This document shows, one piece after another, positions 21,179-25,364 of a stretch of DNA of 38,550 nucleotides (position 1 is its first letter; the number at the start of each line of letters is the position of its first letter). The notes beneath the pieces were generated by a model. That model was not told the DNA's origin. It made no database searches and saw only the letters and a list, made by a program, of their open reading frames with translations. The DNA is from Geobacter sp. GTDB lineage: Bacteria > Desulfobacterota > Desulfuromonadia > Geobacterales > DSM-12255. The stretch is from positions 1 to 38,550 of the forward strand of contig VFJK01000119.1 of the NCBI GenBank assembly GCA_009886125.1, given 5' to 3'. The translations under genes were made by a program, and so were the position numbers.

Positions 21179-22636
21179 ATGTCTACTCCACTGAAAATAC
21201 TCATTGTAGAAGATTCGGAAGATGATCTCTTCCTGCTGCTGCACGAACTCCGCAAAAGCGGTTTCGCGCCCGAATACCTCTCCGTATGCACACCTCAAAC
21301 AATGAGCAGTGCTCTTCAAGACCGCGTCTGGGATGTTGTCACCTCGGATTACAATATGCCCGGATTCAGTGCCATGTCAGCTCTGGATATCCTCCAGAAA
21401 AGCGAACTGGACCTCCCGTTCATAGTCGTATCCGGGAAAATCGGTGAAGATCAGGCTGTTGCCGCCATGAAAGCCGGGGCCCACGATTATGTGATGAAAC
21501 AGAATCTCTCGAGACTCGGTCCTGCAATCGAACGGGAGCTCAGGGAATCTGATGAAAGGAAAAAACGGCGCGAGGCCGAAGTCGCTCTCAAAAGGCAGTT
21601 CAGCCAGTTCAGGACGATCTTCGACGCCATGAACGCTGTCATATATGTTGCTGACATGACTACCCATGAACTCCTCTACATGAACCGTTATGCGAAAGCT
21701 TTGTTCGGACAGAATTGGGAAGGAAAAGTCTGTTACACCGTTCTTCAAGGAGGGAAGAGCAAGCCCTGCGAATTCTGCACAAACCCCTATCTGGTAAAAG
21801 ACGGTGCTCCTCAGCCCGCAATTACAACTGAACATAAAAACAGCATAAACAACAGGTGGTACCAGTGGACTGACCGGGCGATCGAGTGGACTGACGGACG
21901 GCTGGTCAGGCTTCAGATCGCCGTCGATATCACCGAGATCAAGGAGATGGAGCGGATCAAGGATGAGTTGATCTCAGCGGTCAGTCATGAGATGCGGACC
22001 CCTCTGACCGCAATGCTCGGATTTACCGAATTCCTCCTTGAGAACGAGGTTGAGGCTGATAAACGGCAGGAGATCATTGAGACGATCCACAAAGAGACTG
22101 AACGTCTGAACGAGCTGATCGGGAATTTTCTCGACATGCAGAGACTCAAAGATGAATCCGTCTCTATAACTGAAAGTGTTCTGTCTGTTGAAGATATCCT
22201 GAATCAGAGTGCAAAACTCTTCACCTTCAATAAAGAGATGCAGCGTATAAAAGTTGAGTGCCAACCCGGACTGCCCCGGATAATAGGGGACCGTGAGAAG
22301 CTGCACCAGGTAATGCTGAACCTGCTTTCGAACGCCTGTAAATACTCGCCGCCCGGCACCATAATCACCATTGATGCAAAAGCGGGAGAAGGGGAGATCA
22401 TCTTCTCAGTGCAGGATGAAGGGATCGGTATCCCGGTGGATATGCGGGAGAAGGTCTTTGAAAAGTTCTACCGGATCGACAACTCGGACAGAAGAATGGC
22501 CGGAGGGACAGGACTCGGCCTTGCCCTGGTGAAAGACATTATATCGGCACATGGCGGGCGCGTCTGGATAGAGTCGAATGACCCTGTCGGCAGCAGGGTC
22601 ATGTTCACGATACCTACACGTTCGCCGGCTAGTTGA
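21179..22636 (+). CDS. Receiver-PAS-histidine kinase hybrid
   Basis: A 485-aa cytoplasmic signalling protein. The receiver domain (residues 1-125) has the acidic pair VEDSEDD and phospho-acceptor D57 in SDYNMPGF. A PAS domain (about 135-255) contains a Cys-rich stretch, VCYTVLQGGKSKPCEFC, near residues 180-197. The kinase core follows: H270 in VSHEMRTPLTAM, an N box (LLSNACKYSPPG), G1 (DEGIGIP), an F box (FEKFYRID) and G2 (GTGLGLALVK). No membrane segment is present. The start at 21179 is supported by AAAAGG 10-15 bp upstream and by the promoter at 21118. The 3' end overlaps the convergent gene at 22629 by 8 bp. The PAS Cys cluster is common in deltaproteobacterial sensors and may bind a metal or sense redox, which is inference. 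Confidence 0.88.
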   Translation: MSTPLKILIVEDSEDDLFLLLHELRKSGFAPEYLSVCTPQTMSSALQDRVWDVVTSDYNMPGFSAMSALDILQKSELDLPFIVVSGKIGEDQAVAAMKAGAHDYVMKQNLSRLGPAIERELRESDERKKRREAEVALKRQFSQFRTIFDAMNAVIYVADMTTHELLYMNRYAKALFGQNWEGKVCYTVLQGGKSKPCEFCTNPYLVKDGAPQPAITTEHKNSINNRWYQWTDRAIEWTDGRLVRLQIAVDITEIKEMERIKDELISAVSHEMRTPLTAMLGFTEFLLENEVEADKRQEIIETIHKETERLNELIGNFLDMQRLKDESVSITESVLSVEDILNQSAKLFTFNKEMQRIKVECQPGLPRIIGDREKLHQVMLNLLSNACKYSPPGTIITIDAKAGEGEIIFSVQDEGIGIPVDMREKVFEKFYRIDNSDRRMAGGTGLGLALVKDIISAHGGRVWIESNDPVGSRVMFTIPTRSPAS

Positions 22637-23108
22637 CTTTAACCGTTTTATGCTTGCGTGATTTTTTTGATTTTTTAGCCTCAGCCAATGAAAGGATTTC
22701 TGCCCTCGAGATTCGCCACTCTCCAAACTCCTTGCTCATCCTGAACGATTTTGTCTTGTACTCCATCTCTCCCGTGGCATCGAGACCTATTTTTGCCTTG
22801 ATCACCACGCTATTAGGAGACTTCAGCATTACCGAGACATCCTGCATCTTCTCCCAGCAGCAGGAGGGCTTGTGCCGGGCAGCAGACATCTTCCTTGAAA
22901 ATGATTCCTTTGTATCCTTCCCGCTGACGAGCGTCCGCTCATAAAGCTCGCCGTAATTTCCTTCGCGCCAGAGATCCAGAATCCGCTCAAACCCCTTGGT
23001 GACTTCGGCTTTTACTGCCTCTTCATCGGTAACGCCACGACCTCCCCATGAAGGTGAAGCCAGAATCATCGCCAGCAGAACAGCAAAAATGGTGGAATAA
23101 CGTTTCAT
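22629..23108 (-). CDS. Small exported protein of unknown function
   Basis: A 159-aa protein with a clear signal peptide (MKRYSTIFAVLLAMILASPSWG, cleavage likely after about residue 22). The mature part resembles a small alpha/beta fold of the NTF2-like kind (VTKGFERILDLWREGNYGELYERT, later MEYKTKSFRMSKEFGEWRIS), where the final Trp-containing strand is typical. It has two adjacent Cys (SCCWEK) in the middle and a basic C-terminal tail (KKSKKSRKHK). I do not recognise a named family. It lies 26 bp upstream-side of aroF's 3' end on the same strand, so it may be read through from aroF, and it overlaps the convergent kinase by 8 bp. Confidence 0.75.
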   Translation of the reverse strand: MKRYSTIFAVLLAMILASPSWGGRGVTDEEAVKAEVTKGFERILDLWREGNYGELYERTLVSGKDTKESFSRKMSAARHKPSCCWEKMQDVSVMLKSPNSVVIKAKIGLDATGEMEYKTKSFRMSKEFGEWRISRAEILSLAEAKKSKKSRKHKTVKVN

Positions 23109-23134: not shown

Positions 23135-24154
23135 TCAGATCGTCCTGTCTACCGCCTCTGCAACCCGGCGCATCTTCTCCATCAATAAAGCAAATTTGGC
23201 CGGTTTTAAAGATTGAGGACCGTCACTCGAAGCATGTTCCGGATCGGGATGGACTTCGATGATCAGCCCGTCAGCCCCTGCCGCTACCGCAGCAAGCGAC
23301 ATGGGTGAGACATAATGATGATTCCCGGTGGCATGAGAAGGGTCGATCACTATCGGCAGATGGGTCTTGCTTCTCAGTACGGGTATCGCTGAAAGGTCCA
23401 GTGTGTTTCTGGTGGCTGTCTCAAATGTCCGGATCCCCCGCTCGCAGAGGATCACCGACTGGTTACCTTCTGCCAGGATATACTCTGCGCTCATCAGCAG
23501 TTCCTGGATGGTCATAGCCATCCCTCGTTTCAAAAGGACCGGTTTCTTTAACTGGCCGACCTTTTTCAGAAGAGCAAAATTCTGCGAGTTCCGTGCTCCG
23601 ATCTGAAGGATATCTGCATACCCGGCAACAAGTTCTGCAGTTTCCGGGTTTATGACTTCGGTCACAATCGGGAGCCCGGTCAGGTCGCGAGCCTTGGCAA
23701 GAAGCTTGAGCCCCCCCTCTTCAAGTCCCTGGAAGGAGTAGGGAGAGGTCCTGGGCTTGAATGCTCCACCGCGAAGGATGTCTCCTCCTGCGCTTTTGAC
23801 TGCTTCAGCGCTCTCGATGATCTGTTTTTCGCTCTCAACCGAGCAGGGCCCGGCCATTATGATTATCTTCGAGCCGCCGATAGTGACAGTGTCACTTATC
23901 TTCACGAGGCTGGAATCCTTCATAACCTCTTTTGACGCGAGCTTGTATGGCTGCAGGATCGGCACGACGCTCTCGACTCCCTTCATCGACTCGATTTCCT
24001 GAAGAGCCAGCTTTCCACGCTCATCGCCGATAGCCCCGATCACATCACGGGTAGTGCCGTGAATCACATGGGGGTTATAGCCAAGTTCGCGTATCCGCTT
24101 CAGCACTTCATCCTTCTCCTTTTTCCCTGCGCCGGACTTCATAACGATGATCAT
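23135..24154 (-). CDS. aroF: 3-deoxy-7-phosphoheptulonate synthase (DAHP synthase), type I beta with regulatory domain
   Basis: A 339-aa enzyme that condenses phosphoenolpyruvate and erythrose-4-phosphate, the entry step to chorismate and aromatic amino acids. An N-terminal ferredoxin-like domain (residues 1 to about 70; [20 protein letters not shown]) is of the kind that binds aromatic end products in related enzymes. The barrel follows with [46 protein letters not shown] and the C-terminal [14 protein letters not shown] motif. A ribosome site (CGGGAGGATACAAAAG) precedes the ATG. Upstream on the same strand lie two terminator hairpins and a Phe/Tyr-rich leader peptide, which indicate attenuation by aromatic aminoacyl-tRNA supply in addition to allosteric control. 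Confidence 0.95.
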
Positions 24155-24186
24155 CTTTTGTATCCTCCCGAGTTTTCGAAAGCACG

Positions 24187-24221
24187 AAAAAGGGCCGGAG
24201 GAGTTACGCCCCAGGCCCTTT
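24187..24221 (-). terminator. Second terminator-like hairpin in the aroF leader
   Basis: On the minus strand AAAGGGCC (24221-24214) pairs with GGCCCTTT (24196-24189), with further G-C pairs inside and a following T run. It is 33 bases before the aroF start and would terminate any transcript that passes the first hairpin unless that is prevented. Confidence 0.7.
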
Positions 24222-24233
24222 CAGTATGCTGAC

Positions 24234-24270
24234 AAAAAAAGCCGGGGGTGTAGTTCTGTCCACCCTCGGC
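24234..24270 (-). terminator. Attenuator terminator in the aroF leader
   Basis: On the minus strand GCCGAGGGTG (24270-24261), a 10-base loop, CACCCCCGGC (24250-24241), then seven T. One pair is mismatched. The 5' arm with its preceding AAA (24273-24267) is complementary to CGGCTTT at 24346-24340 inside the leader-peptide coding region, a candidate antiterminator pairing. Confidence 0.75.
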
Positions 24271-24300
24271 TTTCGGTCTGTTTTCTGGTCAATGTTTCTC

Positions 24301-24387
24301 TCAGTACAAACCGGACTTCCGGGCAGACGGTCCAAAATAAAAGCCGCACCAAAAGTTGAAGGTTGTAAAGGTGTAGAAACTGGTCAT
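24301..24387 (-). CDS. aroF leader peptide (28 aa), Phe/Tyr-rich
   Basis: A 28-aa frame, start ATG 24387 (an in-frame ATG at 24393 would add two residues) and stop TGA 24303-24301. Phe is at positions 4, 7, 10, 12, 16 and 18, Tyr at 5, 17 and 28, Trp at 13: ten aromatic residues of 28. It is followed by a Rho-independent terminator about 30 bases after the stop. The gene it precedes makes the first intermediate of aromatic amino acids. This is the classical layout of a translation-controlled attenuator (pheL/trpL type): ribosome stalling on Phe or Tyr codons would free CGGCTTT (24346-24340) to pair with the terminator's 5' arm. No Shine-Dalgarno is visible, and the promoter -10 region lies about 11 bases before the ATG, so the leader may be translated almost without a 5' untranslated region. 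Confidence 0.82.
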   Translation of the reverse strand: MTSFYTFTTFNFWCGFYFGPSARKSGLY

Positions 24388-24397
24388 TGACATGTGA

Positions 24398-24429
24398 GTT
24401 ATATGGCAGAAGCAGCGAGCAGCTGTCAA
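24398..24429 (-). promoter_or_regulatory. Candidate promoter of aroF leader
   Basis: A perfect -35 TTGACA at 24429-24424 on the minus strand. The -10 is ambiguous: CATATA at an 18-bp spacing or TATAAC at 20 bp (24403-24398). Either puts the transcript start close to the leader-peptide ATG. Confidence 0.6.
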
Positions 24430-25169: not shown

Positions 25170-25364
25170 AAAGAAGTAATTGCTCTCTGTCATGATCGTG
25201 TGACTGCAAAACCCTGGCGGAATATTTTATAACCAGGGGGGCTTTTTCAGCCGTGGTGTGCTGCCCTCAGTACGCGGGAACTGCCTGAAGCGGCTTCCAG
25301 TCCCCCACCTCATAGGAACTCGCCCAGAGGTCCTTCGAGTCCACGGCATGATGGAGAGTTTGAG
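25170..25364 (+). ncRNA. ssrS: 6S RNA
   Basis: An RNA of about 190 nt that mimics an open promoter and binds sigma-70 RNA polymerase in stationary phase. It is identified by fold, not by sequence search. The terminal stem is 25183-25194 with 25347-25358 (12 pairs, two wobble), continued by 25197-25200 with 25342-25345 and 25202-25205 with 25338-25341. The closing stem is CCT-GGCG (25213-25219) with CGCC...AGG (25321-25330). A large central bubble follows (left 25221-25235, right 25307-25320). The apical arm is GGGGGGCT (25236-25243) with AGTCCCCC (25299-25306), then AGCCG/CGGCT (25249-25253, 25291-25295) and an inner hairpin. This long rod with a central bubble flanked by G-C pairs is the 6S architecture. 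It has its own promoter and terminator. It is distinguished from tmRNA and SRP RNA by lack of their motifs. Confidence 0.82.

Follow-up and report, generated by a model that had tools for sequence, protein, structure and literature searches.

A putative ribosome-mediated attenuator with two terminator hairpins in the aroF leader of Geobacter and related bacteria

Known leaders and their likeness to the aroF leader

The his leader, hisL, follows a scheme in which successive segments, A to F, pair with one another. In Salmonella and E. coli it adopts alternative structures, E-F being the terminator (PMC11805395). The leader described here lies upstream of aroF in a Geobacter sp. (assembly GCA_009886125.1), in a window comprising positions 1 to 38,550 (38,550 nucleotides) of contig VFJK01000119.1. 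Like hisL, it is rich in the codons that it would read, the alternating pairing of its segments would decide the fate of the last hairpin, and termination would be the default without translation. Of a his-type alternation, the pairings 2:3, 3:4, 4:5 and 5:6 (Table 1) are supported across lineages; 1:2 is seen at the start codon in Syntrophus-like loci but is not significant in the window. Whereas hisL reads His codons, the aroF leader would read aromatic ones; its target is a DAHP synthase, it has no Rfam similarity, and in the window and in most Geobacterales its middle hairpin, T1, ends in a U-tract and is a terminator as well. In Rokubacteria only the last hairpin of the aroF leader is a terminator, as in hisL. 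Judged by analogy, hisL above all would be the closest system in working, ahead of pheL and trpL.

The E. coli pheL-pheA and trpL leaders (PMC11802643) share with the aroF leader an ORF with Phe or Trp codons, an intrinsic terminator and an antiterminator drawn from the leader region. Unlike them, the aroF leader would control the first common enzyme instead of pheA or trp, mixes Phe, Tyr and Trp codons, adds a second covarying hairpin and has no Rfam match. In C. glutamicum, Phe limitation raises transcription of aroF via ribosome stalling on the aroR leader (Neshat et al. 2014, cited in PMC11802643), and the passage on aroR in PMC11802643 gives Tyr as without effect. As described there, aroR likewise places aromatic codons, Phe-Tyr-Phe, before a DAHP synthase gene. 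It belongs to Actinobacteria, the passage mentions only three consecutive aromatic codons (PMC11802643), and the likeness is one of description, not of descent. The uORFC-13-1 motif of Acholeplasma aroF, a predicted Phe-reading uORF with a terminator upstream of the gene, has this arrangement in common with the Geobacter leader; it differs in being genus-restricted and in having its own ribosome-binding site and at least one Phe codon, and has not been reported beyond Acholeplasma and environmental sequences (PMC8632094). The trpL leader mRNA of Sinorhizobium meliloti is leaderless, its 5' end having been mapped at the ATG of the leader ORF (PMC7298713). The same is predicted for the aroF leader, solely from promoter spacing; the S. 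meliloti leader differs in being a Trp leader, that of trpE(G).

A Geobacter or Desulfobacterota aroF leader was not found in the open literature; subscription papers and attenuator databases, one of which is referred to in PMC1173090, lie outside that scope, and a prior prediction is possible. As far as we searched, the control is of a known kind, with a precedent in aroR and a proposed one in Acholeplasma, and its Geobacter-like and relay form is undescribed in searchable papers. Rfam gave no leader, riboswitch or T-box match in the region at gathering or relaxed threshold, the relaxed-threshold matches (microRNA, viral elements) being due to chance, and the leader peptide had no match in Pfam or NCBIfam. 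A preliminary description of the locus had called such a leader not commonly annotated, which holds for Rfam, Pfam, NCBIfam and the searchable papers.

Layout and distribution of the leader

Table 1. Features of the aroF leader region on the minus strand of the window
Feature	Position (strand)	Basis
Leader promoter: -35 TTGACA (24429-24424), 18-nt spacer, -10-like CATATA (24405-24400)	24400..24429 (-)	-10 predicted
Predicted +1	24393 +/- 1 (-)	promoter spacing
Leader peptide ORF of 30 codons, its translated mRNA probably leaderless	24301..24393 (-)	conservation, codon composition
Segment 2, antiterminator 5' arm, GUCUGCCCGG, inside the P-S-A-R codons	24319..24328 (-)	covariation with segment 3, duplex energies, two-frame reading
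Segment 3, T1 5' arm; its GGGUGGAC (24265-24258) pairs with segment 2	24258..24273 (-)	covariation, duplex energies
Segment 4, T1 3' arm CACCCCCGGC and U-tract (24240-24234)	24234..24250 (-)	sequence, duplex energies
Segment 5, T2 5' arm AAAGGGCCUGGGG, a complement of segment 4	24209..24221 (-)	swap test, modelling
Segment 6, T2 3' arm CUCCUCCGGCCCUUU and U-run (24191-24187)	24187..24203 (-)	sequence, duplex energies
aroF Shine-Dalgarno, GGGAGG	24164..24169 (-)	sequence
aroF, DAHP synthase type I-beta, N-terminal ferredoxin-like regulatory domain	23135..24154 (-)	PF18152 and PF00793 (DAHP_synth_1); NF006421

The preliminary description had noted a minus-strand frame of 28 codons with six Phe, three Tyr and one Trp codon (24387-24301), followed by a terminator at 24270-24234. 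The count proved correct, and the terminator was placed right to within a few bases: the stem of T1 spans 13 bp, including one mismatch, between 24273-24261 and 24250-24238. The conserved start codon, however, is an ATG further upstream in the same frame, at 24393; the TTGACA box begins 36 nt before it. Of 95 loci, 75 have a TTGACA that begins 35-38 nt upstream of the leader ATG; in the window it is the ATG at 24393, not that at 24387, that shows this spacing. Such a distance puts the +1 on the ATG or adjoining it. Only 7 of the 95 loci have a Shine-Dalgarno-like purine-rich motif before the leader ATG, whereas 86 have one before aroF. Judged by the spacing, the leader mRNA probably starts at 24393 and would be leaderless. 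Nine aromatic codons fall among the 18 richest of the window leader; of 3000 dinucleotide-shuffled versions of the intergenic region, one reaches this density.

The upstream neighbour is a divergent GTPase gene (plus strand, ATG about 24496, Pfam MMR_HSR1), and in the window no co-directional gene lies upstream of T1 and of the second hairpin, T2 (24221-24187), which has its own U-run. Just 3' of the GTPase gene is a 6S (SsrS) RNA gene (25181-25361, plus strand; Rfam RF00013, 71.1 bits). On the other side, 27 nt 3' of aroF, a minus-strand gene (22629-23108) encodes a secreted-looking protein of 159 residues without confident Pfam family; it is possibly co-transcribed with aroF and would then fall under the same attenuator.

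We read the upstream regions of aroF orthologues from a set of genome contigs and from 57 related genomes. The upstream alignment of Geobacterales orthologues, which the preliminary description had proposed, shows both the aromatic-rich peptide and the hairpins to be conserved. All the Geobacterales and Desulfuromonadales orthologues read have an aromatic-rich leader ORF upstream; its stop codon lies about 130-165 nt from aroF in nearly all of them, and its consensus is near M-x-S-x-R-F-F-x-x-F-x-F-Y-F-W-Y-G-F-Y-F-R-P-S-A-R-V-x-V. Equivalent leaders ending in V-C-P-x-L or close to it were found in four of four Rokubacteria and, before the same DAHP synthase, in Syntrophus-like Desulfobacterota. 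Of 62 more distant orthologues sampled from the phylum, 36 score at least six aromatic residues per 14 in their upstream region. Conservation of the leader peptide across about 130 loci makes a chance origin untenable.

A covariance model, R1, spanning segment 2 to T1 found 57 of 58 relatives positive, with one strong match each, apart from one with two matches (a duplicated fragment); the single relative without a match also lacks this aroF, and its assembly is incomplete. Across the class 105 of 117 genomes were positive. Weak R1 matches in G032:C44, G372:C1 and G374:C1, in or near unrelated sequence and with no aroF downstream, were rejected. On this sequence conservation, the aroF leader is old and near-universal within the group.

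No aromatic leader precedes the aroF paralogue (about 55% identity) at any of 13 loci, and no comparable leader was seen with the Nitrospinota, Ignavibacteria and Firmicutes orthologues in the set. In the same genome the upstream regions of pheA and trpE contain no aromatic-rich ORF, and a Phe-rich ORF before pheS (MECYAFHFFFFK) is just the U-tail of an ordinary terminator. The genome also carries a second DAHP synthase gene (G000:C69:224-1213), about 56% identical and without leader, which suggests separate control of the two isoenzymes. Several Desulfobacterota lineages (L161, L162, L164-L169, L171-L177) have the same aroF without an aromatic leader, reflecting either loss or a different control of aroF. 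A third leader type (L181, L185, L195, L198, L199, L204, L208, L211, L212) has G-P-P-V-G or a like sequence as its last residues, immediately before the stop codon; here T2 is decayed and lies near the aroF ribosome site, and these leaders may act on translation. At one locus (L226:480-860; G042:C62:12480-12860) the leader is present once more: both hairpins are there, but aroF breaks off after its first part and gives way to a frame resembling a Cas6-type CRISPR protein, a broken duplication beside CRISPR genes.

Covariation and modelled ribosome dependence of the antiterminator

In the window the covarying antiterminator joins GUCUGCCC(GG) at 24328-24319 (core GUCUGCCC, 24328-24321) to GGGUGGAC at 24265-24258. 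In an alignment of 48 leaders this 2:3 helix is paired in 97.9% of cells, and pairing falls to 39-52% when the helix is slid. Two-sided changes occur at three of its eight pairs (17 cells), a result equalled by none of 500 shuffles. Three congeners match CUCCGCCC with GGGUGGAG, a compensatory change, and one clade encodes P-S-T-R with GUCCACCC, which fits GGGUGGAC perfectly; the replacement of P-S-A-R by P-S-T-R accompanies the change of segment 3 from GGGCAGAC to GGGUGGAC. In a swap test in which a single locus stood for each lineage, the permutation fraction for 2:3 was 0.0014. Covariation and duplex energies thus both give 2:3 as an antiterminator mutually exclusive with T1. The underlying RNA motif, GUC[UC][GA]CCC, encodes P-S-A in 69 loci, where it falls in frame 2, and V-C-P in the 17 where it falls in frame 0; with two frames in use across lineages, it is the RNA on which selection acts. 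Loci of Rokubacteria and Syntrophus-like bacteria have, at the start codon, a segment 1 complementary to segment 2; in the window the best candidate for a 1:2 pairing (z -1.4) is not significant.

Folding of the window leader was modelled with the ribosome represented by a masked stretch of assumed footprint. Before segment 4 emerges, the modelled probability of 2:3 is 0.96, 0.96 and 0.85 with the ribosome at codons 9, 14 and 15, against 0.03 without ribosome and 0.00 with the ribosome on the stop codon. In the model, a stall at the control codons frees segment 2, full translation covers it, and in the ribosome-free leader it is folded away. In the window, a ribosome on the stop codon is expected to have its 5' edge just short of segment 2, the masking of which may therefore be partial. 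In the complete leader at equilibrium, T1 has a probability of about 0.98 at any ribosome position. T1 being the equilibrium winner throughout, the switch must be kinetic, as the choice is in known attenuators.

The proposed relay and its alternatives

Very probably, to judge from sequence and modelling, this leader is a ribosome-mediated transcription attenuator of aroF that senses charged Phe- and Tyr-tRNA, possibly also Trp-tRNA. The preliminary description had proposed a Phe/Tyr attenuator of aroF: the kind of control stands, with peptide, position, terminator and an alternative helix all conserved, and the antiterminator that it named falls. It had overlooked T2 and the pairing of T2 with T1, as well as the wide distribution and the start at 24393, probably a leaderless one.

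From the computed features (the ORF and its conservation, the covariation of 2 with 3 and of 4 with 5, and the modelled effect of ribosome position on 2:3) we infer the start site, translation, stalling, termination, a relay in the cell and which amino acid would matter most. The RNA would start on the leader ATG (24393) or beside it, and its aromatic-rich leader would be translated. With ample charged aromatic tRNAs, the ribosome would reach the stop codon and cover segment 2 or its surroundings; 3:4 (T1) would then form and RNA polymerase would stop, while polymerase leaking past T1 would meet 5:6 (T2). A stall at the Phe, Tyr or Trp codons just upstream of segment 2 would leave segment 2 free to capture segment 3 while segment 4 is still to be transcribed. 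Once made, segment 4 would be free to capture segment 5 and weaken T2, and aroF would be transcribed. Without a ribosome, the leader would fold segment 2 away and termination would occur by default. We consider the 4:5 relay a probable part of this mechanism. The fuller claim, that of a two-terminator relay with a leaderless leader and six alternately pairing segments, in which one stall disarms both terminators and which has persisted in Desulfobacterota and Rokubacteria through changes in the hairpin sequences and in the frame of segment 2, seems to us evenly balanced.

The main competing reading is that T1 alone attenuates, as in trpL and pheL, T2 being a backup or leftover terminator with no 4:5 relay. 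The U-tract is better on T1 in most Geobacterales, and T2 is degenerate in the G-P-P-V-G lineage. T2 adjoins T1 in nearly all leader-bearing lineages, however, and segment 5, complementary to segment 4, tracks it from lineage to lineage, the cores being CCGGGG in Geobacterales, CCAUGG in Syntrophus-like loci, CCGUGG in L189 and L192 and CCGCGG in Rokubacteria. In 28 representatives the loci's own 4:5 duplexes average -18.6 kcal/mol, against -14.6 kcal/mol for swapped duplexes; a set with a single locus for each lineage gives -19.0 against -15.5 kcal/mol and a permutation fraction of 2e-5, in a test that is not tree-aware. The control pairing 2:5 was not stronger than swapped in this test (fraction 0.14). 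The likeness of segments 4 and 5 could in principle stem from an old duplication and be kept by another force. Since the U-tract in Rokubacteria is found on T2 and not on T1, any attenuator in these bacteria must work at T2, which 2:3 could reach only via the relay. A U-tailed T2, unless disarmed, would moreover block aroF in starvation too.

Modelling of T2 speaks to both readings. Over 80 loci, with T2 cut to its core, its median probability is 0.96 when segment 2 is covered but 0.38 when 2:3 is present; formation of 2:3 lowers it by more than 0.2 in 48 loci and raises it in none. In the window the probability drops from 0.74 to 0.00. A neutral hairpin substituted for T2 stays at 0.98 in both states. 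With looser hairpin borders the effect is weak and mixed (0.67 against 0.76 in the window), and T2 keeps a probability above 0.7 despite 2:3 in 34 of the 80 loci, so that by this measure the relay is partial, not uniformly strong. We regard action through T1 alone as a serious though somewhat unlikely alternative.

Much less likely is a nascent-chain arrest of the TnaC or SpeFL type, in which the W-x-G-F-Y-F-R-P-S-A-R end would stall the ribosome on a free aromatic amino acid. This peptide end is indeed highly conserved within Geobacterales, but the conserved segment is read in two frames across lineages, P-S-A-R becomes P-S-T-R together with segment 3, as expected of an RNA constraint, and the peptide further upstream keeps its aromatic composition, not its sequence. 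We give slightly less weight still to a constitutive leader, common as intrinsic terminators alone are, in which the terminators would set a fixed level of aroF, or a protein or small molecule would control it, with the ORF incidental: the aromatic ORF is kept in about 130 loci, the promoter stands at a fixed distance from its ATG, and no Rfam riboswitch or T-box was detected. Least credible is the antiterminator of the preliminary description, CGGCTTT (24346-24340) with AAAGCCG (24273-24267), correctly located and a perfect 7-bp complement in the window, but paired in just 76.3% of cells, the same as shuffled partners, with AAAGCCG missing in many relatives (L096, for example) and CGGCTTT liable to be covered by a ribosome stalled at the neighbouring Trp, Gly and Phe codons.

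If the attenuation mechanism proposed here is true, entry into aromatic amino-acid synthesis, for which Geobacter-like bacteria have no annotated control, would acquire a defined and testable one. Leader-peptide attenuation of the type I-beta DAHP synthase would be an old trait, present in at least two phyla. T2 would offer a natural test of one ribosome stall disarming two terminators, and the motif read in two frames would make a clean case of RNA structure overriding peptide sequence within a leader gene.
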